A stretch of DNA of 64,000 nt from a virus. A program made the position numbers and the translations under genes. Each line of letters starts with the position of its first letter. Positions within the stretch are counted from its first letter, which is position 1. Shown here in pieces: positions 3,676 to 33,180 of the stretch. The notes beneath the pieces were generated by a model. That model saw only the letters and a list, made by a program, of their open reading frames with translations. It did no database searches and had not been told where the DNA came from. The stretch spans positions 1-64,000 of the IMG/VR virus record IMGVR_UViG_3300034417_000033; one strand, 5' to 3'.

Positions 3676-4602
3676 TTAATTCATAAATCCAAAACCTTTC
3701 TTATCTCCCTTAGAAGAAGATGGGTCGGAATCAATCATACGCTTAATTCTAGCTAGTGATTCATTAAAGTCATTACCTAAACATTCAACAGACACAATCA
3801 ATTCTTTCAAGTGTGCAACAGAGAACCCGTCTGTCGATTCAACCCATTTAGCAAGTTCGGTTTCATTTTCTAACAGTGCTGGGTTTTTAATTCTCAAGAA
3901 CTCACGTCTTGCATCGTCGCTCGGCATGCCAATGTAAATGACTTCGTCAAATCTGCTTGGGCGATTTGTGATACGCTTGTCTAGCAATTCCGGATAGTTT
4001 GTAGTTGCAACAAAGACTACGTTGTCTACTTGTAACTCGCCATCGAGCATTGCAAGGATTTCAGATTCCCCATATTGCTTAATGATTGAGTCGATGTCTT
4101 CGAGAATTACGACGATGGGTCTATTCGGTTCAATCTTGCGCAACATTCTAAGCCCTTCTGCATCGTGTGCAGGGTAGGTACTATAAATGGAAATGCCGCC
4201 CATGTCAATAATCTTTTTAGAAATTTGTTGCACAGTTGAAGTCTTACCGGAGCCAGGTGGGCCCCACAGCATTACACCACGTTTCCACAAGAATCCGAAG
4301 TCACGGAAGAATTGTTCTTTAGTCCAGAAGTTTTCGATTGAGTCAATTACTTTTGCACTGTTGTTATCTGGAAGAACAATCAAGTTGTCAAGACTAACAG
4401 TTTTTCTCACAAAGTAAAATCCCTGTGTGTCACTGTAGCGAACAAGATACTGCCCGGGTTCTAATTTGTCAACTGCCTTTTGGCAAGGGTAAAAGTTCTC
4501 ACCTGACACAGACCACATTTTACCATCTTCTCCAGCTCCTCGGAAATTGGAGGATGATGCTAATACTGGACGAAAATCTGGTGCTTCAATATCTTGCGCC
4601 AT
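3676..4602 (-). CDS. AAA+ ATPase, FtsH/Bcs1-like core without protease domain
   Basis: This 308-residue protein has one AAA+ module. Walker A is WGPPGSGKT, Walker B is VVILEDID, sensor 1 is FVATTNYP, and a second-region arginine finger lies in NRPSRFDEVIYIG. An N-terminal domain of about 110 residues has no clear match, and there is no HExxH protease motif. The core resembles phage and Bcs1-type AAA proteins that remodel other proteins. I chose ATG 4602 (GAAGGA Shine-Dalgarno 6 bases away) over a TTG at 4635 that would overlap the upstream gene. The substrate is unknown; it lies among nucleotide-metabolism genes. Confidence 0.82.
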   Translation of the reverse strand: MAQDIEAPDFRPVLASSSNFRGAGEDGKMWSVSGENFYPCQKAVDKLEPGQYLVRYSDTQGFYFVRKTVSLDNLIVLPDNNSAKVIDSIENFWTKEQFFRDFGFLWKRGVMLWGPPGSGKTSTVQQISKKIIDMGGISIYSTYPAHDAEGLRMLRKIEPNRPIVVILEDIDSIIKQYGESEILAMLDGELQVDNVVFVATTNYPELLDKRITNRPSRFDEVIYIGMPSDDARREFLRIKNPALLENETELAKWVESTDGFSVAHLKELIVSVECLGNDFNESLARIKRMIDSDPSSSKGDKKGFGFMN

Positions 4603-4618
4603 GCAAGTTCCTTCGTTA

Positions 4619-5080
4619 TCAACTTCTGTATTCAATTATTTTTACTCCTGTTGAGTTTAACATATCTAATGATGCTTCCATAGACTCTTGCCATCTTTCA
4701 CTAAACCCCGTGTTCTTACCGGGGCCGTGTTCTTCATCTATTACTATTGTGGTAATGCCGTTTTGAATAATTGCCCTAGTGCAATCAGCACATGGGAAAT
4801 GTGTACAAAACATAACTGCATCTTTTAAATTAACTTCTGCGTTATAAATTGCATTACGTTCAGCGTGTTCGTAATAATACAATTTTTTTGGACGTTCGTG
4901 GATGTCAGTTCTGCTGTCATCCATTTTTCTTACCGGACCGTTATAACCAAACGACAGCGGCTTTCCTGTTCTACTAAAAATGTAGGCACCTGTTTTAGTA
5001 GACGGGTCTTTAGAATACGTAGACACTTCTTTTGCAAGTTTCAAAAACCTGCCAAGCCAAATATCGGACTCAATGTCCAC
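4619..5080 (-). CDS. cd: dCMP deaminase (T4 Cd-like)
   Basis: The protein deaminates dCMP to dUMP, feeding thymidylate synthase. The zinc-dependent cytidine/deoxycytidylate deaminase signature is complete: HAERNAI (zinc His and catalytic Glu) and PCADC (two zinc Cys). The protein is about 153 residues from the chosen GTG at 5080, which has a GAGG Shine-Dalgarno 7 bases upstream and overlaps the upstream stop by 11 bases; an ATG at 5146 would give a much larger overlap. The GYNGPV and DDSRTDIHER segments fit the dCMP deaminase family. Together with DHFR, thymidylate synthase and NrdAB it completes a phage pyrimidine pathway. Confidence 0.88.
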   Translation of the reverse strand: MDIESDIWLGRFLKLAKEVSTYSKDPSTKTGAYIFSRTGKPLSFGYNGPVRKMDDSRTDIHERPKKLYYYEHAERNAIYNAEVNLKDAVMFCTHFPCADCTRAIIQNGITTIVIDEEHGPGKNTGFSERWQESMEASLDMLNSTGVKIIEYRS

Positions 5081-7144: not shown

Positions 7145-7391
7145 GGTAGTCCGGCGTGTTCTCGATGTAGTCAGCGTATTTCATTAGCGCCATCAACTTA
7201 ATTTTGTTTGATGAAAACTTTAATCCCACATGTGCAGGCCCATCTCGCATTATGAAAAATGTGCCAGTCACATGACCTTCGTAATCCTTAAAGAATTGTT
7301 CTGGCAGGACTGCTAGTCGCCTTAGACGAACGGTGGAAGACCATAGTTTCCACCGTATCCGATCCGTTTCTCTTTGTCTAGATGTTGCCAT
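7134..7391 (-). CDS. Hypothetical protein with RDGPA and LMKY motifs
   Basis: This 85-residue protein, immediately downstream of clpP, starts in a TAATG overlap with the clpP stop. It carries FIMRDGPAHVGLKF, a single copy of the DGPA motif found as repeats in proteins at 23.5-26.5 kb, and an IKLMALMKYADYI segment before the end. The basic, Arg-rich N-terminus (TSRQRETDRIRWK) is distinctive. Its cotranslation with clpP could indicate a link to proteolysis, but no domain supports this. Confidence 0.6.
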   Translation of the reverse strand: MATSRQRETDRIRWKLWSSTVRLRRLAVLPEQFFKDYEGHVTGTFFIMRDGPAHVGLKFSSNKIKLMALMKYADYIENTPDYHDI

Positions 7392-8017
7392 TAAGTTGGG
7401 CGTTTCAGCAATACCTTATCAGCAAGCCCACTGTCAACTGCACCCTGTGCGGACAGGAACGTGTCGTAAGTCATTGTTGCAAACAGTTCCTCGTATGTTT
7501 TGCCGGAAGTGTTGTGATGCACATACAGTTCAGTCAAACGCTCGTTCAAGCGTTTTGCTTCGTCGATCGAACGTTTCGCATCTTCGAATTGCATTTCCTG
7601 AATGTGAATGGAGCCACGTGTGCCGCTGGTGCCCGAGCTAACACGGTGAATCATTGTGCGAGCTTCTGGCATAACAAAGCGTTTGCCTTTTGCGCCAGCT
7701 TGTGCAAGGAACGAACCCATCGACGCTGCTTGGCCCACGACCAAAGTGCTAACGTCTGGTTTGATGAATTCCATCGTGTTGTAAATTGCAAGACCGGCAG
7801 TTACTGAACCGCCGGGCGAGTTGATGTACATGTGGATGTCAGCGTCGGGATTCTCTGCTTCCAAGAACAGTAATTGGGCGACAATTAAGTCTGCCATCTG
7901 ATCATGGACTTCGCCGGTAAGAAAAACCACACGCTCTTTCAGCAAACGGGAAAAGATGTCATAAGAGCGTTCGCCCTTAGCTGTCTGTTCCACGACCATC
8001 GGTACTAAACTTGCCAT
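7391..8017 (-). CDS. clpP: ATP-dependent Clp protease proteolytic subunit ClpP
   Basis: This 208-residue serine peptidase (family S14) forms the degradation chamber used by ClpX-type unfoldases. The full catalytic triad is visible: Ser99 in GQAASMGSF, His124 in [11 protein letters not shown] and Asp185 in [11 protein letters not shown]. The oxyanion-strand motif YINSPGGSV is intact and the length equals bacterial ClpP, so it should be active. A sigma70 promoter at 8051-8079 and a GGAG Shine-Dalgarno precede ATG 8017. The matching unfoldase ClpX (31954-33180) and adaptor ClpS (20420-20722) are in the same window, although not adjacent. Confidence 0.96.
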
Positions 8018-8446: not shown

Positions 8447-9209
8447 CTGCTGCAACTGATTCTGCAAAGTCCTTGTCGTAACCGTCTGCGTCTTCGTTTA
8501 ACGAATCGAAGTTGTTAAGTGCCCACATCCAATAATCTAATGGAACATCTTCTAATTTGGCACCTTTGTACTTGCCGAACGGCATAGTTGCCAATTTAAT
8601 TGGTTCAGTCAACCAATGTTCCAACTGTACCCTGTATGAAATTCCTTCTTCAAGAATCCCACGCTTAATTGTTTCATCAAGCAAATGCTCAACTAGCAAT
8701 GTTGTCACAAGAACATCAGCACCCGCTCTATGTGCAGAAGTATCTTCAGGAACTTGCAAATCAAAACGGTATCGCAAATATGGAAGGTTAAATTCTTCTA
8801 CAGTTGCGTCGCCCGCATATAATTTTTTAGCCCAGCGCATAGTACAAATCCATGGCGTATTTAAATCCACAAGCATGTACTTTTCTAATACTTTCGAATC
8901 ATAGAAAGCATTGTGTGCAACTCTAGATCCTTTGCCTACTAAAGATTGCAACACAGGGTTAATGTCTTCTTTGGCGCCGTTTTTAAACAGAGGGCGACCA
9001 TCAACCATTTTGTTAGTGATGTTAGTTATTGAGGAAACTTTATACGAAATTGGTTCCATTGGTGTGTACAAGTGACTCACTATTTCCCACCCATGTGGAA
9101 ATTTTAAGCCAAAACCAAATTCAATGACTTCTGCTATCTTAAATTCTAAGCTAGTTGTTTCTGTATCAATTACAATACAGTCTTCTAAAAATTCTTCTCT
9201 TCTATCCAT
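8424..9209 (-). CDS. DnaQ-family 3'-5' exonuclease (DexA/ExoX-like)
   Basis: This 261-residue exonuclease of the RNase H-like DEDD fold has Exo I IVIDTETTSLEF, Exo II RVAHNAFYDSKVL and Exo III SAHRAGADV, so the four metal-binding acids and the active-site His (DEDDh type) are present. The C-terminus MPFGKYKGAKLEDVPLDYWMWAL matches the short DUF3820-type module often attached to ExoX-like phage exonucleases. T4 DexA degrades ssDNA and contributes to host DNA turnover; the same role is likely. The gene lies just downstream of DHFR and ends in a convergent overlap with the plus-strand gene. Confidence 0.88.
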   Translation of the reverse strand: MDRREEFLEDCIVIDTETTSLEFKIAEVIEFGFGLKFPHGWEIVSHLYTPMEPISYKVSSITNITNKMVDGRPLFKNGAKEDINPVLQSLVGKGSRVAHNAFYDSKVLEKYMLVDLNTPWICTMRWAKKLYAGDATVEEFNLPYLRYRFDLQVPEDTSAHRAGADVLVTTLLVEHLLDETIKRGILEEGISYRVQLEHWLTEPIKLATMPFGKYKGAKLEDVPLDYWMWALNNFDSLNEDADGYDKDFAESVAAVISAKLD

Positions 9210-9766
9210 TATCTTATTTTCCTGAGTATATTGTTTGTGTCGAACCCGTCTATTATTTTTTTATTTTTTTCAAGCACATAATACTCTGCGTATACATCAG
9301 CAGTGGGGTCTGGAAGATCCCGGCTTATAATGTGGAAGTTATTTACAATACTGCACTGTGTTTCATGAGACAGTTTAATTCTATCGCCGGCTGGCAACAC
9401 TGCTCCCATTACTTTAGTAAAATATATTTTACTAGCGTAGAATAAACCATCAGCATAAATTTTGGAGCCACCAATGAAAAATATCTTTTCTTCATTCGAA
9501 ACCATATCCATTGCGTAATGTACTGAGTCTACAGTTTCAACGCCTTCGATATTTGCAAATTCATCTGGAGTGGATGTGACAATTATGTTTCTTCTGTTGG
9601 GAAGAGGCTTGCCCATAGAGTGGTATGTATTTTTCCCCATGATAACAGCAGAACCAGTGGTCAGTTGCTTGAACCGTTTCATATCATCTGGTAAGTGCCA
9701 CGGGATTGTATTGTTTACGCCGATAACGCCATCAATTGTGGCTGCGAAGATTAAAGCTATGTCCAT
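9209..9766 (-). CDS. frd: Dihydrofolate reductase
   Basis: This 185-residue DHFR reduces dihydrofolate with NADPH, regenerating the folate consumed by thymidylate synthase. Motifs: ALIFAATIDGVIGVNNTIPWHLPDD contains the Ile-Pro-Trp loop and catalytic Asp; IMGKNTYHSMGKPLPNR is the NADPH/substrate region; IFFIGGSKIYA is the FIGGG-like motif. ATG 9766 is chosen because a GGAGGA Shine-Dalgarno lies directly upstream; the upstream ATG at 9784 lies too near the promoter. A sigma70 promoter at 9788-9816 drives it. The C-terminus extends about 20 residues beyond minimal DHFRs (EKNKKIIDGFDTNNILRKIR). Confidence 0.93.
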   Translation of the reverse strand: MDIALIFAATIDGVIGVNNTIPWHLPDDMKRFKQLTTGSAVIMGKNTYHSMGKPLPNRRNIIVTSTPDEFANIEGVETVDSVHYAMDMVSNEEKIFFIGGSKIYADGLFYASKIYFTKVMGAVLPAGDRIKLSHETQCSIVNNFHIISRDLPDPTADVYAEYYVLEKNKKIIDGFDTNNILRKIR

Positions 9767-9787
9767 TGTTTCCTCCATATTCAACCA

Positions 9788-10052: not shown

Positions 10053-11522
10053 CTATACGATTTTATATTGTTTTATTTCTTTCCCGGCGGAGTTGTATGA
10101 CACTAACCACGGAGTAAAACCCCATAGTCTTTTAATGTGCGCTAGGCACTGTGTTGCTTCCTCATCTTCAAGAAGACATCCGTTAATTATATAGTGGTGC
10201 AATTCTAATGTTCTATCACTATTTAAATTTGCATTCACAATCTGAATATTAGGAATGAGGTTGTTTACTTCGTATCGTCTAGACAATGCACGCCGAATAT
10301 CTTTGTAGCCTCGATCATCGTGAATGTTCGAAACTTCGTAATAGTCGGCATCATGATCTTCGATCCTAAACATTTTGAATTTCTCAATTACGTTAGGGCC
10401 TAGAAATTGTAATACAAAACTATCATCTCTATAGTTTTCTACAATTTCTCTAATTACTTCCATATAATTTTTTCCACAGATATCAGGAAACCATTCCCGA
10501 TCCTGTTTTGTTGGATTCTCACATGCACGTCTAATATCTCGATACATGGAAAGTCCTAACGCATATGGATTAAAATTTCCATATGCTAATTGATTGAGCA
10601 CTCCAGCATTAGTTTTAATATACTCCAACATAGTGCCGTCGCCAATCAAATCTTTGTCATACAAACGATTCATAATGTAGTCATGAGTAAAGGATGCGAA
10701 CCCTTCGTTCATTACTTGCGTTTGCATTTGTGGATAAAAATACTGCGTGATCTTACGAACAATGCGTATGATCTCTCTTTGCCATGGAGCTAAGATTGGA
10801 GAATTTTTCTCAATGAACTTTAGGATGTTCTCCTGCGGTTCCGCTGGGAACTTGCTTTCTTTCTCTTTCTTAGTCTTCTCTGGGGATTGCCATAAGTAAC
10901 TGACATTTTTTTGTAAATACTCCTCTCGTTCTGCTTGCCGTCTTGACTCTTCAGCAAAGTTAATTTTTTTAGGATGCTTGTATCTATCTATACCTTGATA
11001 TTTTAGCGCGTGGCAACTATCAAGGATTTGTTCAACTGCGTCATACCCGTAATTTTCCTCGCACTTGGAAATATAGTTTTTAGCAAAATCTAAATAGTCT
11101 ATAATACTAGATGCGTCAGTCCACATTTTGTACAAGTAATTATTTTTAAAGAAATGGTTGTGTCCAAATGCAGCATGTGCAATTACAACTGCTTGCACTG
11201 TTGCTGTGTTGTTTTCCATTAGATAGTTTATGCAAGGGTTTGCGTTAATAACTAACTCATACGCAAGTCCAGATTCGCCCGATTTATAACTTCTATCTTG
11301 TTGTAAAAAGTGTTTGCCGAAACTCCAATGGTTATAATTTATTGGCATGCCCACAGATGTGTATGCAGTAACCATATGCTCTGACGAAACAATTTCTAAT
11401 TGATTAGGGTAAACATCTAAGCCCATTTCTTCTACAGCGATTGTTTGGCATTCAGCGTAGATGTTTTTTAATGTGTTGGTGTCCCAATCGACGCCATCAA
11501 ACAATCTTTTTTTAGACGCCAT
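10053..11522 (-). CDS. spoVR: SpoVR/YcgB family protein
   Basis: This 489-residue protein is close in length to E. coli YcgB (about 510). It is recognised from its family features: YPNQLEIVSSEHMVTAY, YNHWSFGKHFLQQDR, SGLAYELVINANPCINYL and the histidine pattern AVVIAHAAFGHNHFFKNN. The C-terminus contains the conserved NVIEKFKMFRIEDHD and LELHHYI segments. The molecular function of SpoVR is not established. In bacteria its gene is repeatedly found beside yeaG/prkA and yeaH, as here. ATG 11522 has an AGGGAA Shine-Dalgarno and overlaps the YeaH stop by 11 bases, so the three genes form one operon. Confidence 0.93.
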   Translation of the reverse strand: MASKKRLFDGVDWDTNTLKNIYAECQTIAVEEMGLDVYPNQLEIVSSEHMVTAYTSVGMPINYNHWSFGKHFLQQDRSYKSGESGLAYELVINANPCINYLMENNTATVQAVVIAHAAFGHNHFFKNNYLYKMWTDASSIIDYLDFAKNYISKCEENYGYDAVEQILDSCHALKYQGIDRYKHPKKINFAEESRRQAEREEYLQKNVSYLWQSPEKTKKEKESKFPAEPQENILKFIEKNSPILAPWQREIIRIVRKITQYFYPQMQTQVMNEGFASFTHDYIMNRLYDKDLIGDGTMLEYIKTNAGVLNQLAYGNFNPYALGLSMYRDIRRACENPTKQDREWFPDICGKNYMEVIREIVENYRDDSFVLQFLGPNVIEKFKMFRIEDHDADYYEVSNIHDDRGYKDIRRALSRRYEVNNLIPNIQIVNANLNSDRTLELHHYIINGCLLEDEEATQCLAHIKRLWGFTPWLVSYNSAGKEIKQYKIV

Positions 11523-12804
11523 ACTTTTCCCTCTTCTTTTCAAATAAGTTTTTAAACACAGCGTATATTTCTTGCTCGCTGCCTATTTCTCTTACTTGTA
11601 AATGTTTACATATCGAAGCCAACTTTGTGTATAGCTGCCACAAATTGCCTACAGCTTTTCCTGTACGGCTTCTTGGCGCTTTAGCGATTTCAATGTATGC
11701 AAAATATTGGCAAGTTGGTAATATTTCATCTGTAAGTATTTTCTCAACATGGCGATTGTCACTTTCGTAATTGTCGCCGTCTGTAGCTTGGGCATAATAT
11801 ATATTATAATCTGATGCAGGGTAACGTTCTTTCTGGATTTTTTCTGCAACAGCAAATGCTGAAGAAACTATTGTGCCGCCCGTCTCTTTGTCATAAAAGA
11901 ACTGTTCCTCTGTGCATTCTCTAGCATCAGCATGATGTCGAATAAAAACTAATTCAACCTTCTCATATTTTTTGTGCAAGAACCAATACAATAATGTAAA
12001 GAATTTCTTAGCAATCATTTTATGATATTCTTCCATACTTCCAGACACGTCCATTACACAAAACATCACTGCTTTGCTAACAGGCTTAGGAACTTTATCA
12101 AAGTTTTTGTATCTTAAATCTATAGGATCGATAAAAGAAATATAATTTAATTTATGTCGCAACTTTTCGATTTGCTCTACAATTAATTTGATTTCTTCTT
12201 CGTTGCCTTTCTTATTTTCTAACTCTTCTATTTTTGCAAGTAATGCAGCAATCTCTTTATCGGATGGCGACTTTAAAGCAATTCTTCTTCCCAGACTGTT
12301 CTTCATTGTTCTAACTAAATCTAATGACGCCGGTGTGCCGTTGCAAGTAAATCCTGCCCGTTGCATTTTATATTCCGTTATGTCTTGATCAGAAGTTTTA
12401 ACTAAATTAGGAAGTTCCATATCTTCAAACAATATGTCATAGAACTCATCTTTGGAAATCGTAAAAGTAAATTCATCGTCGCCCTCACCACTGTCAGATG
12501 CTTTGGGTTCGCCACCTTCTCCTCGTTGAGGCTTTTCAATCAAGTCACCTGGAATATAGTTTTTATTTCCAGGCAATACTCGATCGGTTTGTCCAGTCTG
12601 TGTGTCATTGTTAAACGTAGGTTCGCCAATGCCGCCAGTTGTTATTGTAATATTTTCGCTGTCGTCTGAGGTTATTGATCTTTTGGAGAATCCTTCCTGC
12701 ACCTTACGCTTTAATTGATCCTTAACTTTCTTAAGGAAGCGTTGGCGGTTGGAAGAATTCTTATCTCCAGATGTTCCTCTTCGATCTACAATGGTGTAAT
12801 CCAT
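11512..12804 (-). CDS. yeaH: YeaH-like DUF444 protein with von Willebrand A domain
   Basis: This 430-residue protein is practically the same length as E. coli YeaH (about 427). The N-terminus has the family features TIVDRRGTSGDKNSSNRQRF and a Gly/Glu-rich linker around residues 93-112. The C-terminal half is a von Willebrand A domain with the metal-ion site DVSGS at residues 252-256 and a threonine in TGGTIVSSAF. YeaH is thought to act with the kinase PrkA/YeaG. It sits between the PrkA and SpoVR genes and overlaps SpoVR. The module therefore appears complete and under one control. Confidence 0.93.
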   Translation of the reverse strand: MDYTIVDRRGTSGDKNSSNRQRFLKKVKDQLKRKVQEGFSKRSITSDDSENITITTGGIGEPTFNNDTQTGQTDRVLPGNKNYIPGDLIEKPQRGEGGEPKASDSGEGDDEFTFTISKDEFYDILFEDMELPNLVKTSDQDITEYKMQRAGFTCNGTPASLDLVRTMKNSLGRRIALKSPSDKEIAALLAKIEELENKKGNEEEIKLIVEQIEKLRHKLNYISFIDPIDLRYKNFDKVPKPVSKAVMFCVMDVSGSMEEYHKMIAKKFFTLLYWFLHKKYEKVELVFIRHHADARECTEEQFFYDKETGGTIVSSAFAVAEKIQKERYPASDYNIYYAQATDGDNYESDNRHVEKILTDEILPTCQYFAYIEIAKAPRSRTGKAVGNLWQLYTKLASICKHLQVREIGSEQEIYAVFKNLFEKKREKYGV

Positions 12805-12813
12805 TTGTACCTC

Positions 12814-14763
12814 TTAGGAAGATTTGCGGGCCCTTATGAACCACTCAGTTAAACGATTTATTTGACGTTCGCTGTAACCTTTGTCTTTCATCCTAGAAAC
12901 AAAATCGTTTCTTTTCTTTTCGTCGTCTTTGTTTGCTTTAGTGCCAAGACTAATAATAGGAAGCAAGTCTTCAGTTGAGGAAAAGATTTTCTTCTCAATG
13001 ACTTCTGCTAACTTCTCGTAACTGTTCCAACGAGGAGATGCGCCTCTATTTTTTGCTTTAGATCGTAATACAAAATTAACAACTTCAGAACGGAAGTCTT
13101 TTGGATTTGCAATTCCAGCAGGCTTTTCAATCTTTTCAAGTTCGTCATTAAGTATAGATCGGTCAAACATTTCGCCTGTGTTTGGATCGCGGTAGTCAAT
13201 GTCTTGCAACCACGAGTCAGCATAAGCGAGATATGTTTCAAATACATTTTGCCCATATTCGGAAAAAGACTCCACGTATGCACGTTGAATTTCTGTCCCA
13301 ATGAACTCTTTGTATTCCTCTGCCATGTAAGACTTAATAAACCCAATGTATAACTCTTCTTTCTCTGCGGAAAACTGCTCTTGCTTAATTGCGTTTTCAA
13401 GAACATACATTAGGTGTATTGGGTCAGCTGCAATTTCATCTTTGTCGAAGTTAAATGTCTGCGACAACACTTTAAACGCAAATCTAGTTGACGAGCCGGA
13501 CATGCCCTCGTTGACACCGGCAGCATCAGTATACTCTTGGTATGCTTTTACATTCGGGTCCTTGTTTTTAAGATTTTCACCGTTGTACACGCGCATTTTT
13601 GTCACAAGGTTTAAATTATTCTCATGAGTTTTCAATCTTGTTAAAACAGAAAAGTCTGCAAGCAACTCCAAAGTCTTTGGTGCGCATGGGTTATTTGCAA
13701 GCTGAGAATTTTCAAGCATCTTCTTGTAGATTTTAAGTTCTTCATCTCTACGCAAGCAGTATGGCACTTTAACAATGTAAATACGATCGATAAACGCCTC
13801 GTTATTTTTATTGTTTCTAAATGTTTGCCATTCTGATTCGTTGGAGTGAGCTAATACTACGCCTTGGAATGGAATAGCACCCAATCCGTCTTCTGTGCCT
13901 TTATAGTTGCCTTCCTGCGTAGCAGTTAGCAACGGGTGTAAAACTTTAATCGGGGCTTTGAACATTTCCACAAACTCAACAATGCCCTGGTTACCACGGC
14001 ATAATGCGCCATTGTATCCGTAAGCATCGGTATCATGCTGTGCGAAATATTCTAGTTTTCTAATTTCAATCTTACCAACCAAGGACGATATATCTTGGTT
14101 GTTTTCATCACCAGGTTCAGTTTTAATAATTGCAACTTGGTTAAGTTTGTTAGGCCAAATTTTAATTACTTTAAACTTTCTGATATCTTTTATTTCCGAC
14201 AAGCGTTTTACTGCCCACGGACTTGCAATTACCCCTTTTACATATCTTGAAGGAATATTGTATTCAGTTTCGAGTGCTGCTACAAGCTCAGGCTCTTCAG
14301 AGAACAAACCAAATGGAGACTCAAATACTGGGGAAATTTCATTCCCGTATTTAAGAACATAGATAGGCTCTTTCTGCATCAACTCTTTCAAACGTTCTGC
14401 AATACTAGACTTAGCAGATCCGACTGGGCCAAGCAAATACAGGATTTGCTTTTTCTCTTCGAGACCTTGTGCAGCGTGTCTGAAATAACCAACAATACGT
14501 TCAATTGTTTCTTCCATGCCATAGAAATCCTCAAAAGGCTTGTATCTTTTGATTGGCTTGTTTTGGAAGACTCTGGATAGCTTGGAGTCCGTAGATGTGT
14601 CTACTGTTTCAGGCTCGCCAATAGCAGCTATCATTCTTTCAGCTGCCGTTGCGTATACTGCGGGGGTTGTTTTACAGAGATTTAAGAATTCTTCTAACGT
14701 AAACTCTTCTTCTTTTCTCTCGTTTATGAGATTTGAATAAATACCGAATAAGTTACTAACCAC
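12814..14763 (-). CDS. prkA: PrkA/YeaG family serine protein kinase with AAA domain
   Basis: This 649-residue protein is full length relative to E. coli YeaG (about 644). The N-terminal AAA-like core has Walker A GPVGSAKS at residues 112-119; the family typically has GPVGGGKS, so one glycine is replaced. The characteristic PrkA segments FSEEPELVAALE, GVVLAHSNESEWQTF and DRIYIVKVPYCLR are all present. The C-terminal domain carries the kinase-like region. The start is GTG 14763, with an AGGAGG Shine-Dalgarno 5 bases upstream. In bacteria PrkA participates in stationary-phase, nitrogen-starvation or sporulation responses; a phage copy may redirect that response. Confidence 0.93.
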   Translation of the reverse strand: MVSNLFGIYSNLINERKEEEFTLEEFLNLCKTTPAVYATAAERMIAAIGEPETVDTSTDSKLSRVFQNKPIKRYKPFEDFYGMEETIERIVGYFRHAAQGLEEKKQILYLLGPVGSAKSSIAERLKELMQKEPIYVLKYGNEISPVFESPFGLFSEEPELVAALETEYNIPSRYVKGVIASPWAVKRLSEIKDIRKFKVIKIWPNKLNQVAIIKTEPGDENNQDISSLVGKIEIRKLEYFAQHDTDAYGYNGALCRGNQGIVEFVEMFKAPIKVLHPLLTATQEGNYKGTEDGLGAIPFQGVVLAHSNESEWQTFRNNKNNEAFIDRIYIVKVPYCLRRDEELKIYKKMLENSQLANNPCAPKTLELLADFSVLTRLKTHENNLNLVTKMRVYNGENLKNKDPNVKAYQEYTDAAGVNEGMSGSSTRFAFKVLSQTFNFDKDEIAADPIHLMYVLENAIKQEQFSAEKEELYIGFIKSYMAEEYKEFIGTEIQRAYVESFSEYGQNVFETYLAYADSWLQDIDYRDPNTGEMFDRSILNDELEKIEKPAGIANPKDFRSEVVNFVLRSKAKNRGASPRWNSYEKLAEVIEKKIFSSTEDLLPIISLGTKANKDDEKKRNDFVSRMKDKGYSERQINRLTEWFIRARKSS

Positions 14764-14840
14764 GGAACCTCCTTATTCTTTAGTTTTTTATTGTTATTAA
14801 TATTACTTATCTGTTTGTTCGAATAGAATATGGCTTTCCA

Positions 14841-14870: not shown

Positions 14871-16208
14871 CTACTCTATTTTGGATGAATGGTCGGCGAT
14901 ACTTTTGTCATACCTCCGTTCTTCAAAACGCGGCAAGAACAACGAATCTACATTAGCTCGATTTGCACCTTTGCTTTTGATACGCTCGTTGTATTTTACA
15001 GTGACAATGCAACCAATCCAGTCATCAATGTCATCAGTAATTTCTTGACGCAGTGCATCTGAGAATCCGCTAATGCTAACTTCTACTCCGCCATCAGCAG
15101 ACTGACAAACTAGCGAACCGATCAGCTTTTCGTTTTTGGTTCCAGGAGTGCCCGGATTCCAACCAGTAACAACAAGCTCACATTCCTTTTCAGATTTCAT
15201 TTTTACTAAATCTTTGGAACGTTTGTCTTCCCAAATACCAGCTACGTTTTTAAGCATGGTGCCTTCTTCGCCTGCATTGAGCATTTCTTCAAAATGGTCA
15301 AGTGCTTCAGCTAAGTTATGCACAATGCGATTTTCAGTAACTGCAATCTTAGATGAACCAGATAACACTTTCACAAAATTATCAGTGCTATCACTTTTAA
15401 CAATGGAGCACAACGTTGCGTAGCGGGCATCGTACGCTGTTTTAAACACCTTCTTAACGAAGTCTGCATGTGGGATCCAATCCCACAACTTAATGCAAAC
15501 TCGGCTCGCTTCATCTTCAGAAATGGTTCCCTTAATCGCTTTGTTAAGGATACCATTGCCCTTTTTGCGAGACATTACAGTGCCGTCATGATTCAGAACA
15601 ACAAGTTCTCCATCAAATACGCACTTTCTGTTTCGGAAGGGTTCGAAAGCTGCTTCCAAATGCCCTAACGTGTCGATTGGCTTGCCCGACCGACCAAAAA
15701 TCAAAATGCTTTCCGGAGTACAGTGTACGTTAGCTCGCATCCCATCAGATTTTACTTGGGAAATTGCAGGATACACAATTGCCTTAATGCTTTTCTCGTC
15801 ATACCCTTTGCCTAGCAAGCAAGGATATGTTGGAACTAAATCATCCCACACTTTGTTTACTGTAGATTCTTGAATTCCGCAGCGCAAGTCTTTCTTAATG
15901 ATTCGCTCTGCAATTACTGCATCGCCAGATTCTAACTTAGACAACAAGTTAGACAAATGGTTTTGTGCTGCATGGCCTGTCACTTTACGCTGTGTCAAAT
16001 CCTTAATGCCTTCTAAGAATTCTACTAACGTAATTGTTTCAGTGTGGCGCGTGTATGCTGGGATCTTTTGAATGAAGTATTGTGTGTATGGATTAAGTGC
16101 TGCGTTGAAAATTGATTTTAAAAGTTCGTTGCTCTTGTTGTTTGATAAAATTTGAAGTTTGTCATTTCTGCCTGGAGTTGCTTCTAATGTATCAAATAAG
16201 TTCTTCAT
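14871..16208 (-). CDS. ATP-dependent DNA ligase (T4 gp30-like)
   Basis: This 445-residue nucleotidyltransferase seals nicks in DNA. The adenylation lysine is K153 in SQVKSDGMRANV (KxDG motif). Other ligase motifs visible are CVFDGELVVLNHDG (motif III/IIIa region), EEGTMLKNV (motif IV, EGxMLK-like) and LVKMKSEKECELVVTG (motif V, KMK). The N-terminal helical region of about 130 residues resembles the DNA-binding part of T4 ligase. The length is near that of T4 gp30 (487). It overlaps the upstream small gene by 17 bases and follows ftsH in the same unit. Confidence 0.93.
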   Translation of the reverse strand: MKNLFDTLEATPGRNDKLQILSNNKSNELLKSIFNAALNPYTQYFIQKIPAYTRHTETITLVEFLEGIKDLTQRKVTGHAAQNHLSNLLSKLESGDAVIAERIIKKDLRCGIQESTVNKVWDDLVPTYPCLLGKGYDEKSIKAIVYPAISQVKSDGMRANVHCTPESILIFGRSGKPIDTLGHLEAAFEPFRNRKCVFDGELVVLNHDGTVMSRKKGNGILNKAIKGTISEDEASRVCIKLWDWIPHADFVKKVFKTAYDARYATLCSIVKSDSTDNFVKVLSGSSKIAVTENRIVHNLAEALDHFEEMLNAGEEGTMLKNVAGIWEDKRSKDLVKMKSEKECELVVTGWNPGTPGTKNEKLIGSLVCQSADGGVEVSISGFSDALRQEITDDIDDWIGCIVTVKYNERIKSKGANRANVDSLFLPRFEERRYDKSIADHSSKIE

Positions 16209-16479
16209 CGGTCAGCTCAAAGTAGGTAGGTAAAAGTTTGTTGAGTGGAATTCCACTCTCTATTGAATCTATTAATTTCATTGTTTCTGAACGTGTAGCG
16301 CCTGCAAGTGGAACAACGTATATTTTACTGGGGTTGTTTAAAGTGGACGACAAATATGCACCGGCTACGTTAGTGTGGCAAAGGAACTTAGAAATTATAA
16401 AATAAGTTCCTGCTACACCAGGTTCAATATCACCGTTAACTAATAAGCAATCTTCAAAAAACGTAAACACTTTACTCAT
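16192..16479 (-). CDS. Hypothetical protein between ftsH and DNA ligase
   Basis: This 95-residue protein has no recognised domain. It reads as beta-rich at the N-terminus (VFTFFEDCLLVNGDIEPGVAGTYF) with IYVVPLAGATRSETMKLIDSI and an acidic end (FELTDEELI). It overlaps the ftsH stop by 8 bases and the ligase start by 17, so it is co-translated with both. The function is unknown. Confidence 0.65.
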   Translation of the reverse strand: MSKVFTFFEDCLLVNGDIEPGVAGTYFIISKFLCHTNVAGAYLSSTLNNPSKIYVVPLAGATRSETMKLIDSIESGIPLNKLLPTYFELTDEELI

Positions 16480-18277
16480 GTCGTCGCTCCAATAATTCTA
16501 TAACTTCTTCCCTGTTGATCGTTTCACGTTCCACCAATACATCTGCCATTTTTTCGAGTATGTCTTTGTTCTGGATTAACAACTCTATAGCAGTATTATA
16601 GCTCCTTCTTAGTATCATGTCAACTTCTTTATCAATTAAATTTCCCATAGCTTCAGAATAATCACGACGTCTGTCATAGTCGTGTGCAGTAAGACCCACG
16701 TCACTCAATCCCCACTTAGTCACCATGTTTCTACAGATGCTAGTTGCCCGAGTAAGGTCGTTTGACGCGCCGGTTGTCACAAACTCTTTTCCATAAACAA
16801 CTTCTTCCGCTGCGCGGCCTGCTAATAGGGTTGTTAAAATTCCGTCCAATTTTCTCTTAGAGTAATTGTGTGATTCCACATCTGGTAAAAACATAGTTAC
16901 ACCAAGGCTGCGCGAACGTGGAACAATACTGACTTTATACACCTCGTCGTGCTCTGGAGATAAATGTCCAACAATTGCATGGCCTGCTTCATGTATTGCA
17001 GTAAGTCTAATTTCCGATGGATTCATTTTCTTTGGACTTTCATGCCCCATCATTACTTTATCTTTGGCTCTGTCTAAATCATTTATTCCCACTACATCTC
17101 TGTGATCTCTGGCGGCAAAAATTGCACCTTCGTTAACTAGCTTTGCAATGTCAGCTCCGGAGAAGCCAGGTGTCCCTTTTGCTAAGAACAATGTGTTGCT
17201 TTCAGAAACGTCTGAGATAATTTTTGACAAATGGATATTAATAATTTTCATTCTAGAATCTAAATCCGGAAGACCAAGTGTAACAATCCTATCAAATCTG
17301 CCTGGGCGTAGCAAAGCAGGATCTAAAGATTCAATACGGTTAGTTGCACCAATAATAATTACTCCTCCTGATCCTTCAAAACCATCCATTTCAACCAATA
17401 GCTGGTTTAGTGTTTGTTCCTTAGAGTTTGATCCAGATCCATTACCACGGTGTCCTCCCACTGCGTCAATTTCGTCAATAAATATGATTGCTTGTGTTTC
17501 TTGTCTAGCTTCTTCGAACATGCTTCTTATTCTGCTTGCACCTGTACCCACAAGCATTTCTTCAAACTCTGATCCACTCGATGAATAGAATGGTATGCCA
17601 GCTTCTTTGGCAATAGCTTTGCACACTAATGTCTTTCCAGTGCCGGGAGGTCCTGACAGTAAAATACCTCTGGGAATTTTTGCTTTTACTTTAGCATATT
17701 GCTCTGCGTTTTTAAGGAAGTCTACAATCTCTTGGATTTCCTGCATATCTTCTTCAGACCCAGCAACATCTTTAAATGTTACGTCTATATCTTCTGGATC
17801 GATACGCCTAGCTCTAGACTTACCCATCTCTGATAAGTGGTCTCCTCTAGGCGTGGATTTTTTGGATAACCAAAACATTGCAATAATTAAAACAAACACT
17901 GGCAACAGTGCTATAAGAGATGTTAGGCCAATAGACGATGCTGTAGTATTAGTAGAGTCTGAGTTTGACACATATACAGGGATGCCTTTCTTTGTAAGTT
18001 TTTCTACAATGGGATCGATGTTACTAATAACAGTTGATGATTTGCGGGCTCGCTTGTTATCGACATAGGATACTTTTCTGCCAGTTACTTTAAGTTCAGT
18101 AATTTGGCCAGTAGTATAGTCGTTTATAAACTCGGTATAGCTAACTTCGTTAGGTACAGTAGTGTAAAGCGTATCTGCTACTTGGAGAAGTAGCAGTACG
18201 GAAATTACGAGTAACAGAGTAATTATGGTTTTAGATAAAAACGTCTTTTTGATGGGTGTTTCAGTCTTGGTTTGCAT
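16472..18277 (-). CDS. ftsH: FtsH-type membrane AAA+ zinc metalloprotease, full length
   Basis: This 601-residue protein has the full FtsH architecture: membrane spans at about residues 15-33 and 119-137 with a periplasmic region between, an AAA+ module (Walker A GPPGTGKT 209-216, Walker B FIDEID to 271, GATNR, LLRPGRFDR) and an M41 protease (HEAGH 429-433, third zinc ligand Asp507 in TTGASNDLT). It should degrade membrane and soluble proteins. One oddity: the pore loop reads MLVGTGAS, with Leu242 where bacterial FtsH has the substrate-gripping Phe of FVG. A GATAAATA late-type motif lies 4 bases before the ATG. Full-length FtsH is unusual in phages. Confidence 0.94.
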   Translation of the reverse strand: MQTKTETPIKKTFLSKTIITLLLVISVLLLLQVADTLYTTVPNEVSYTEFINDYTTGQITELKVTGRKVSYVDNKRARKSSTVISNIDPIVEKLTKKGIPVYVSNSDSTNTTASSIGLTSLIALLPVFVLIIAMFWLSKKSTPRGDHLSEMGKSRARRIDPEDIDVTFKDVAGSEEDMQEIQEIVDFLKNAEQYAKVKAKIPRGILLSGPPGTGKTLVCKAIAKEAGIPFYSSSGSEFEEMLVGTGASRIRSMFEEARQETQAIIFIDEIDAVGGHRGNGSGSNSKEQTLNQLLVEMDGFEGSGGVIIIGATNRIESLDPALLRPGRFDRIVTLGLPDLDSRMKIINIHLSKIISDVSESNTLFLAKGTPGFSGADIAKLVNEGAIFAARDHRDVVGINDLDRAKDKVMMGHESPKKMNPSEIRLTAIHEAGHAIVGHLSPEHDEVYKVSIVPRSRSLGVTMFLPDVESHNYSKRKLDGILTTLLAGRAAEEVVYGKEFVTTGASNDLTRATSICRNMVTKWGLSDVGLTAHDYDRRRDYSEAMGNLIDKEVDMILRRSYNTAIELLIQNKDILEKMADVLVERETINREEVIELLERRHE

Positions 18278-24689: not shown

Positions 24690-24871
24690 CCCAAATTCAC
24701 CACTATACTAAAACGTCGCTTGGATTCCTCACGAAATTCATCCATTGTCCAGCCAGCTTCGGATAATATTATGGAATAGTTTGGCCTCTCATAGATGTTT
24801 TCGTTGATGCGGGCATACAGTTCCTCGTACGGAATCCTAACCAACCGTCGAACAACATCGTCTTCACTCAT
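24686..24871 (-). CDS. MSEDD-type small protein, paralogue C
   Basis: This 61-residue protein begins MSEDDVVRRLVRIPYEELYARI, nearly identical in pattern to paralogue A, with AGWTMDEFREESKRRF. It overlaps the amidinohydrolase gene upstream by 8 bases. The function is unknown. Confidence 0.68.
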   Translation of the reverse strand: MSEDDVVRRLVRIPYEELYARINENIYERPNYSIILSEAGWTMDEFREESKRRFSIVVNLG

Positions 24872-25670
24872 GTCCTAATTCTAATACCAGACATTTACAT
24901 GCGCCGCCACTTTTTAGGAACTCACTCATGTTCAACTGTACAACATTGTGTCCAGTTACAGCTAACCGCTCAACCAAATAGTCGGAGCACTTTGGCATAA
25001 TTACTGTGTGCCCAATAGAAACTGCATTACATGCAAATTTCATTGCATCTTCATCGTCAACAACAATTAGTTTGCTGCCGATCGTCTGAACAATGTATTC
25101 CCATGACTTTTTCGTGAATGCGGACTGTGCTGCTAAGTAATACCCTGTATCTAAAGGACAGAAACATGTGTCCAAATGATACCAACGCGGATCAACTAGT
25201 CGAACTGTGTGAAGGTAATCCTCTAGGACTCTCCCTTCGATCTCAAAGATTGCTTCTTTGGCCGAACGTTGCCCATAACCAAGCCAGTATTCGCCATAAC
25301 GATCAACTAAACAGTCACCAGCACCTTCAAACGGAACTTCTGACACGTATGTTTCCCAATCGTTCTCGTCAAAGAACTTTGCATACACTTCAGTTTCGCC
25401 CTGTCGCTCTTTATGCTTGAACGAACTAATCAAAGCCACACCTGTTTCTGGATTAACAACAGCAGCGTTGGCAACAAACACCATATCTGGCAATCCTTCA
25501 ATTGGATCTAGGATTACCACAGTTGCGTGTTCTGCTACTGCATCGTACAAGTTTTCCCATTGTTCCTTGGCTTCTACAACATCAACATAGTTTATGTTTC
25601 CAACCATATGCGGGTTGATCTCATAAGCTACGTTAAAAAAATCAGGCGGACACATCAGGAAAGTCTTCAT
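24864..25670 (-). CDS. Amidinohydrolase/amidinotransferase of the pentein fold (DDAH-like)
   Basis: This 268-residue enzyme of the guanidino-group-modifying superfamily has catalytic residues in canonical order: acidic Glu115 (PFEGAGDCLV), His165 (WYHLDTCFCPLD) and nucleophile Cys260 (SGGACKCLVLEL). Cys258 is a second nearby cysteine. The N-terminus MCPPDFFNVAYEINPHM is typical of dimethylarginine dimethylaminohydrolase-like proteins. Members hydrolyse or transfer amidino groups of arginine derivatives. Its presence in a phage suggests manipulation of arginine metabolism or modified arginines. The gene is directly adjacent to the DGPA protein upstream (TAG|ATG) and overlaps the MSEDD array. 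Confidence 0.87.
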   Translation of the reverse strand: MKTFLMCPPDFFNVAYEINPHMVGNINYVDVVEAKEQWENLYDAVAEHATVVILDPIEGLPDMVFVANAAVVNPETGVALISSFKHKERQGETEVYAKFFDENDWETYVSEVPFEGAGDCLVDRYGEYWLGYGQRSAKEAIFEIEGRVLEDYLHTVRLVDPRWYHLDTCFCPLDTGYYLAAQSAFTKKSWEYIVQTIGSKLIVVDDEDAMKFACNAVSIGHTVIMPKCSDYLVERLAVTGHNVVQLNMSEFLKSGGACKCLVLELGHE

Positions 25671-31717: not shown

Positions 31718-31957
31718 TTAGAACTCTTGACGCAGTGCCGAGTCACGTCTGCGTTGCTGTTCTACTTTAACAGCAATTTTAGAAGCTCGGGTTTTCTTAA
31801 CAGATGGCTTTTCATAAAAGTCACGCTCTCTGAGATCCTTAAGGATACCAGACGTTTGAACTTTCTTAGTGAAGATTTTGAAAGCACGGTCGAAGTTGTC
31901 GTTTTTAACTTCTACAGTGATGCCGTAGGTCTGTTTGTAACTATTGTATCTTTTCAT
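31718..31957 (-). CDS. rpsU: bS21-like ribosomal protein
   Basis: This 79-residue protein matches small ribosomal subunit protein bS21: VEVKNDNFDRAFKIFTKKVQ, SGILKDLRERDFYEKP and a basic C-terminal helix (KKTRASKIAVKVEQQRRRD). Bacterial bS21 is about 71 residues and helps select mRNA at the Shine-Dalgarno/anti-Shine-Dalgarno site. Phage bS21 copies are known in several large phages and are thought to bias host ribosomes. Here it follows clpX with an ATGA overlap, so both are co-translated. An N-terminal RYNSYKQTYG extension replaces the bacterial start. Confidence 0.92.
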   Translation of the reverse strand: MKRYNSYKQTYGITVEVKNDNFDRAFKIFTKKVQTSGILKDLRERDFYEKPSVKKTRASKIAVKVEQQRRRDSALRQEF

Positions 31958-33180
31958 ATGTCTGCCTTTTGGGGTTGTGGTTGTTTTTCCGTAGTATATA
32001 CTGCTGTGCCGTTTTTGTCAATAAAAATATTAATCACGCCTTCCTTTCTTAATCGCGGTAAAACAAACTGCACCTTACCTAACGACTTTTCCATCAACGT
32101 GCGCAATCCTCTTGCACCTGTTTTATTCTTGATGCTTTTTACTGCAACATCACGAACAAAATCTTTATCAAACTCTAATTCAACATCGTCAATTTTAAAC
32201 AGAACTTTATATTGATCAATTAAGTTATTTTTAGGTTCAGTCAATACACGAACCATCATATCTTCATCAAGTGCTTGGAAAGTAACAGTAACAGGGAAGC
32301 GGCCAATAAACTCTCTAATGAAACCATATTGGTGCAAATCTTCCGACTCTACTAAATTTAAAACACTTTCCTTTTTATCTCTTGCTTCAACTTTAGCAGA
32401 GAAGCCAATGCTTGTGCCTAAAGACAACCGCTTGCGTATAATTTCTTCGAGGCCAACAAACGCTCCACCAACAATAAACAAAACATCTTTTGTATTAAAG
32501 TCGATTGTTTCTTCTCTGTGACTGCCTGGCTTTTGTATCTGAACTTTATCGCCATCTACTGCACGAAGCAATGCTTGCTGTACACCTTCACCGGAAACAT
32601 CTTTGGCGCCTACGCCATCTACCTTTTTTGTCTTCTTATCGATCTCATCAATAAACACAATACCTTTCTGTGCTTTATTGATATCGTTGCCTGCTACTTT
32701 CAGCAGTCTTTCAAAAATGGATTCGATGTTGCCACCTACATAACCTGCTTCAGTTAATGTAGTTGCATCAGCAGTAACAAATGGGATATCTAACAGTTTA
32801 GCAATTGTGGAAGCAACTAATGTTTTTCCACAGCCGGATGGACCCATCATCATTACGTTTGCTTTTTGTAATTCAGTTTCGTCCACTACTGGATTAGAAA
32901 TTCTCTTGTAGTGATTATACAGTGCAACCGCAAGTGTTTCTTTTGCATCGTCCTGGCCAACAACATATGTGTCGAGATATTCTTTTATTTCTTCTGGAGT
33001 TTTACGGACTGCAACGACAGTGTCGTCTACAGTTGTTGCATTCCCTGCAATCAGGCCGAAACTCAGCGTAATACACTCGTCGCATATGTACGGAGTGTCA
33101 GCTCCTTTGTCAGGACCTTCGATTAATTTTTTTACGCTGCTTCTACTTTTGTTGCAAAAGGAACATTTTAAATCTGACAT
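31954..33180 (-). CDS. clpX: ATP-dependent unfoldase ClpX
   Basis: This 408-residue protein has complete ClpX architecture: zinc-binding domain with Cys6, Cys9, Cys33 and Cys36; Walker A GPSGCGKT (113-120); pore loop GYVG (146-149); Walker B FIDEID (176-181); the ClpP-binding tripeptide IGF (258-260); and RFPVTVTF plus GARGLRTLMEKSLG towards the C-terminus. It should therefore dock with ClpP. One change stands out: where bacterial ClpX has RKH, this protein has GSHREE (219-224), so substrate choice may differ. A sigma70 promoter lies at 33204-33232. It is translationally coupled to bS21. Confidence 0.95.
   Translation of the reverse strand: MSDLKCSFCNKSRSSVKKLIEGPDKGADTPYICDECITLSFGLIAGNATTVDDTVVAVRKTPEEIKEYLDTYVVGQDDAKETLAVALYNHYKRISNPVVDETELQKANVMMMGPSGCGKTLVASTIAKLLDIPFVTADATTLTEAGYVGGNIESIFERLLKVAGNDINKAQKGIVFIDEIDKKTKKVDGVGAKDVSGEGVQQALLRAVDGDKVQIQKPGSHREETIDFNTKDVLFIVGGAFVGLEEIIRKRLSLGTSIGFSAKVEARDKKESVLNLVESEDLHQYGFIREFIGRFPVTVTFQALDEDMMVRVLTEPKNNLIDQYKVLFKIDDVELEFDKDFVRDVAVKSIKNKTGARGLRTLMEKSLGKVQFVLPRLRKEGVINIFIDKNGTAVYTTEKQPQPQKADI

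Follow-up and report, generated by a model that had tools for sequence, protein, structure and literature searches.

Does a bacterial stress and sporulation module, when carried by a phage, persist there as a working unit, and what might its products do in the infected cell? The locus that raises this question lies in the window analysed here, a stretch of 64 kb that forms the first part of a linear virus record of 106,907 bases (106.9 kb), probably a piece of some larger genome. The preliminary description had taken the carrier for a phage, and the gene content of the record bears this out: a large terminase, a contractile tail sheath, a UvsX-like recombinase and RIIA are encoded outside the window on the same record, while replication genes and their like within the window code for a DnaB-like helicase, a primase, a class I RNR, thymidylate synthase and a helicase. 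The carrier is a lytic-type myovirus.

The trio is tightly packed head to tail on the minus strand, starting with prkA (yeaG-type; 12814-14763), whose GTG start opens a reading frame for a 649-aa AAA+ ATPase with a PrkA C-terminal domain, followed by yeaH (DUF444; 11512-12804), which encodes a vWA/MIDAS protein of 430 aa, and by spoVR (10053-11543; 496 aa counted from the first TTG). A strong Shine-Dalgarno sequence, AAGGAGG (14768-14774, minus strand), precedes the GTG of prkA, by the coordinates 9 bases separate prkA from yeaH, and the true start of spoVR is more likely an ATG at 11522 (489 aa), which lies behind GAGG and would give an overlap of 11 nt with the end of yeaH. The Shine-Dalgarno sequence, the short gap and the overlap together suggest that the three genes form one co-translated unit. 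An ATP-dependent DNA ligase gene (14871-16208) flanks the unit on one side, and a 77-aa ORF followed by a DHFR gene (9209-9784) on the other. A tentative sigma-70-type promoter, a perfect TTGACA-N17-TATAAT match at 16595-16623 (minus strand), is located upstream of a 95-aa ORF, the ligase gene and the trio; it is the sole 12/12 match, in a region where the overall count of promoter-like sites is at chance level, and a hairpin at 14861-14848 may cut prkA off from it. The match falls within the 3' part of ftsH (16472-18277, minus strand), which lies directly upstream of the 95-aa ORF and the ligase gene and encodes a full-length FtsH with FtsH_ext, AAA and M41 (HEAGH) regions that exceeds the FtsH cut-off of NCBIfam; of 29 viral records with the trio, only that of locus L042 also encodes FtsH.

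All three products exceed the cut-offs of their NCBIfam equivalogs (PrkA, PRK15455, 1091 bits versus 576; YeaH, PRK05325, 548 bits versus 396; SpoVR, PRK11767, 705 bits versus 679), in agreement with the earlier claim of three adjacent full-length genes at 10053-14763, and thus match at equivalog level the families of the bacterial yeaG-yeaH-(ycgB) or prkA-yhbH-spoVR stress and sporulation module. The genes are also adjacent on one strand in the order prkA-yeaH-spoVR of Vibrio, Saccharophagus and other Pseudomonadota, as had been proposed. Unlike the bacterial module, however, the window trio resides in a lytic-type myovirus, in the interval from ligase to DHFR, and its SpoVR groups with viral copies (see below).

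The residues expected of each family are in place. PrkA has both the AAA_PrkA domain (534 bits in Pfam) and the PrkA C-terminal domain (218 bits), and the Walker A motif GPVGSAKS, noted previously together with the length of 649 residues, is intact at residues 112-119. In an alignment of 126 PrkA sequences the Walker A lysine K118 and the pair D326-R327 are invariant, and aromatic residues occupy the pore-loop position. Mutation of K116, R232 or K426 abolishes function of E. coli YeaG (PMC4664914), and the equivalents in the window copy (K118, R235 and K431, mapped through Enterobacter YeaG) are all kept. YeaH is a full-length DUF444 protein (505 bits) whose MIDAS site (DxSxS...T...D), likewise recognised in the preliminary description, comprises D252, S254, S256, T311 and D342, five residues that are identical in 146/146 sequences. 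Its predicted fold contains a vWA domain that matches NorD of the NorQD complex, the MIDAS domain of Rea1/MDN1 and many other vWA domains.

SpoVR comprises the SpoVR domain (526 bits) and SpoVR_C (58 bits) and retains the conserved His pattern ascribed to it earlier, with H123/H128 and, in the NEG motif, E280/H287. G127, H128, F132, W254, E280 and G281 are identical in 145/145 sequences, H123 and E96 are kept in 144 of them and H287 in 143. In a confident AlphaFold model (pLDDT 86, pTM 0.84) the invariant His and Glu residues sit on two helices (114-134 and 276-296), where H123, H128, E280 and H287, possibly joined by E96, would make up a probable metal site; from sequence and helix placement alone we infer that SpoVR may be a metalloenzyme. 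Its sequence had no match in the PDB, and the model matched no PDB fold at E<0.001 and none below E=0.1. The top fold matches, small tRNA-splicing-endonuclease domains, were set aside as a lead only (query TM ~0.1, E not below 0.1). The B. subtilis SpoVR cross-links RNA in vivo (PMC12456014).

The preliminary description implied that the trio was unique to this phage, which did not hold when viral databases were searched for it. Scans of viral contigs gave 45 loci, with contiguous prkA-yeaH-spoVR in 40 further IMG/VR records (same-contig loci removed; several are near-duplicates) in addition to annotated phages, although the INPHARED and IMG/VR scans may miss close kin of the window. A terminase was detected at E<1e-20 in 12 viral records besides the window, with the trio linked in 11 and unlinked in one. 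Three ~600-kb phages (LR745206, LR756504 and LR756511) have the linked trio in the window order, a fourth huge phage (LR756502) has SpoVR ~243 kb away from prkA-yeaH, and SpoVR is likewise present and unlinked from prkA-yeaH in IMGVR_3300044959_000237. The copies of LR745206, LR756502 and LR756504 resemble those of the window (60-62% identity for PrkA, 46-50% for SpoVR; same order when linked), whereas these genomes, like that of the Ralstonia jumbo phage RsoM2USA, are much larger. For RsoM2USA, compared by its published table only, SpoVR is ORF28 and PrkA is ORF30, two ORFs apart, and the gap of ~1.35 kb between them would fit a putative yeaH (PMC8504454). The Thermus phages phiYS40, phiLo, MN1 and Lalka8 also encode the vWA protein, SpoVR and PrkA together, and PrkA and SpoVR of phiYS40 are already annotated. 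The Thermus-phage trio differs from that of the window in its order, yeaH-spoVR-prkA, and its copies, together with those of LR756511, are distant (~22-31% identity to the window type) and represent a second type.

The spoVR gene was found in every checked record in which prkA-yeaH lies well inside the ends, with the exception of Enterobacter phage LAU1 (MN688132, locus L012), which encodes YeaG and YeaH and lacks SpoVR. As this record starts at base 1 of YeaG, its YeaG/YeaH pair, probably host chromosome joined to a prophage, was not counted among phage genes and was excluded from the trees. As dozens of other viruses also carry the trio, we regard it as recurrent viral equipment and not as a one-off; our literature search found no paper that presents it as a recurrent phage module. 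The finding in the window is real and, judged by sequence, the trio appears functionally maintained, yet the module is an established one that had already been annotated in phages.

Are the viral copies inherited together, or are they recent gains from hosts? The SpoVR tree places the window copy with the viral loci L042 and L016, at SH-aLRT values of 96 (full set) and 94 (reduced set). The PrkA tree has the same nearest rows, but the placement of the window is not resolved there. Pseudomonadota copies nest within viral diversity, with bacterial sampling skewed to the nearest relatives of the window, and an all-viral SpoVR clade was rejected (AU test, p=0.005), so that phages and bacteria must have exchanged the genes more than once and we do not claim a single viral origin. 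The idea that phage copies cluster together thus stood for the affinity of SpoVR to viral copies and failed for a single viral clade, with PrkA undecided. Across 41 viral loci the distances of PrkA, YeaH and SpoVR correlate strongly (Mantel r=0.87-0.97; none of 999 permutations reached such values), and dN/dS (omega) of ~0.05-0.13 between close viral pairs indicates strong purifying selection. As dS of the window copy is saturated, selection on it is deduced from its kin and its intact motifs.

A recent non-functional gain from a host could draw on the Pseudomonadota operon with its identical gene order and on a closest bacterial PrkA with 67% identity to the window copy, and would leave copies that cluster with one host lineage each and carry inactivating changes. 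Instead, SpoVR sides with L016 and L042 (SH-aLRT 94-96), the motifs are intact with no inactivating change found, related viral pairs show the low omega values given above, and many viral lineages carry the trio, which makes such a gain very improbable. Co-divergence and purifying selection in close pairs led us to reject it and to favour retention of the whole complex, in line with the selection for a complete module that had been postulated from intactness and is now backed by co-inheritance and by omega in viral kin. The co-divergence and the retention of unlinked SpoVR genes are also observations that bear on joint action in a pathway or complex. We read the locus as an orthologous virus-resident copy of the bacterial module that is inherited as a unit and, to judge from kin and motifs, functional.

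Insertions in related phage copies point to the segments that may matter for catalysis. An intein that matches Intein_splicing and LAGLIDADG in Pfam interrupts the Walker A motif (GPVGTAK/SS) of PrkA in L040, and L039 and L041 read alike. Phage SpoVR proteins have five insertion sites in the surroundings of HAxxGH and MNEGxAxxxH (L010, L034, L038, L040, L056 and L057). Pfam support for an intein is above cut-off in L057 and weak in L010, the insertion in L034 has LAGLIDADG above cut-off with a sub-threshold splicing match, and those in L038, L040 and L056 have intein-like ends (Cys first; Asn before Cys or Ser last) and no Pfam intein match. The places concerned are L040:8420-11605, L040:12917-15325, L034:13280-16048, L057:9995-13063, L056:9926-12337, L038:4534-6942 and L010:14444-16348; window PrkA, YeaH and SpoVR contain no inteins. 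Inteins prefer catalytic motifs, and the insertion sites therefore mark the likely active centre, flagging probable active-site segments of SpoVR for which neither a solved structure nor a fold match was found. No paper pairing 'intein' with 'SpoVR' emerged from the literature search.

The most economical reading of the trio is that of a motor, an adaptor and a client. PrkA would be a ring-forming AAA+ motor, to judge from its Walker A motif, the invariant D326-R327 and the pore-loop aromatics; YeaH would act as its substrate adaptor, with the vWA/MIDAS site binding an acidic ligand as in NorD for NorQ or in the Rea1 MIDAS domain; and SpoVR, which binds RNA and has a probable metal site on two helices, would serve as client or effector, its activity perhaps switched through ATP-driven remodelling. 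The pairing of an AAA+ motor with a vWA/MIDAS protein is shared with NorQ-NorD, MoxR-vWA and Rea1/MDN1, whereas PrkA has a C-terminal domain of its own and no known client of these systems is related to SpoVR, the third partner. YeaG and YeaH cooperate as a metabolic brake that quiesces metabolism in nitrogen starvation (PMC10954441), and a phage might use the trio to subject the host to its own version of this brake or stress setting, for instance to dampen the induction of toxin-antitoxin systems and to keep a starved cell in a condition that suits a long infection. We hold with middling confidence that the trio is such a motor-adaptor-client module, with SpoVR switching used by the phage to control quiescence or stress in its host; any benefit to the phage, such control included, is speculative.

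The label "stress kinase" used in the preliminary description leads to a different reading, in which PrkA, assisted by YeaH and SpoVR, is a true protein kinase whose host targets would lie among regulators or in translation or metabolism. Kinase activity was reported for recombinant YeaG, the K426A variant of E. coli YeaG is non-functional in vivo (PMC4664914), and the equivalent K431 is retained in the window. Yet all five Thermus-type/LR756511 copies have Asp in place of this lysine, whereas Walker A and D326-R327 are universal, and the B. anthracis PrkA, which has clade III AAA+ architecture and is without a kinase P-loop, displayed no detectable kinase, autophosphorylation or protease activity (PMC13001217). 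With a putative kinase lysine that some copies lack and an orthologue devoid of detectable kinase activity, the label is doubtful and a kinase role appears improbable. Conversely, earlier work (discussed in PMC13001217) has described PrkA as a kinase and, weakly, as a protease, which speaks against a firm motor-only reading.

The trio might instead serve counter-defence, silencing stress-triggered abortive infection (e.g. by toxin-antitoxin systems) or superinfecting phages, since YeaG represses mqsRA and dinJ-yafQ (PMC4664914) and the carriers are large lytic phages that bring a wide range of takeover genes. That repression, however, is indirect and was observed under nitrogen starvation, none of the three proteins matched a described defence protein in PADLOC, and no known anti-defence gene was identified among the neighbours, leaving counter-defence an unlikely explanation, if one to be reckoned with. 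A chaperone for virion assembly or proteostasis, in which the AAA+/vWA machine remodels phage proteins, could be envisaged from the virion-assembly role proposed for MoxR-vWA pairs of other jumbo phages (PMC7824862), from the ClpX, ClpP and FtsH encoded on the same contig and from the trio's location near the terminase in Thermus phages Lalka8 and phiYS40 (near the portal too in Lalka8). As the window trio sits amid ligase, DHFR and exonuclease genes rather than structural genes, a virion counterpart of SpoVR is absent and the same trio serves stress in bacteria without phages, we judge this role quite improbable. More broadly than the motor-adaptor-client reading that we prefer, and only tentatively, the trio could be an effector machine of general use, driven by its AAA+/MIDAS parts and dependent on RNA or metal, which large phages repeatedly maintain for takeover and have adopted separately in two distant versions, one Pseudomonadota-like (window) and one of the Thermus/LR756511 type. 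If so, phages would tell more about its core function than bacterial starvation phenotypes do.

To our knowledge, the only phenotypes described for PrkA-YeaH-SpoVR are starvation, osmotic-stress and sporulation defects. The interest of the locus lies in the recurrence of the trio in phages: wide, selected retention of the whole trio implies that the module works outside its native regulon, and phages offer a compact new test setting for a module whose biochemical role remains unsettled after ~30 years.

Other genes on the contig are also of note. A full ClpX (31954-33180, minus strand) features a C4 zinc finger, Walker A and an IGF loop (NCBIfam clpX, 425 bits), and a ClpP-like protease (7391-8017, minus strand) with catalytic Ser and His motifs scores 253 bits, above the PRK00277 cut-off; the trio-bearing viral records of L016, L030 and L042 have a ClpX zinc finger and a strong ClpP match too. 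Another AAA ATPase of 319 aa is encoded near the left end of the window (3676-4635, minus strand), and the product of 24864-25670 (minus strand) has a dimethylarginine dimethylaminohydrolase-like match (DDAH_eukar, 41.7 bits) that is unusual in a phage.
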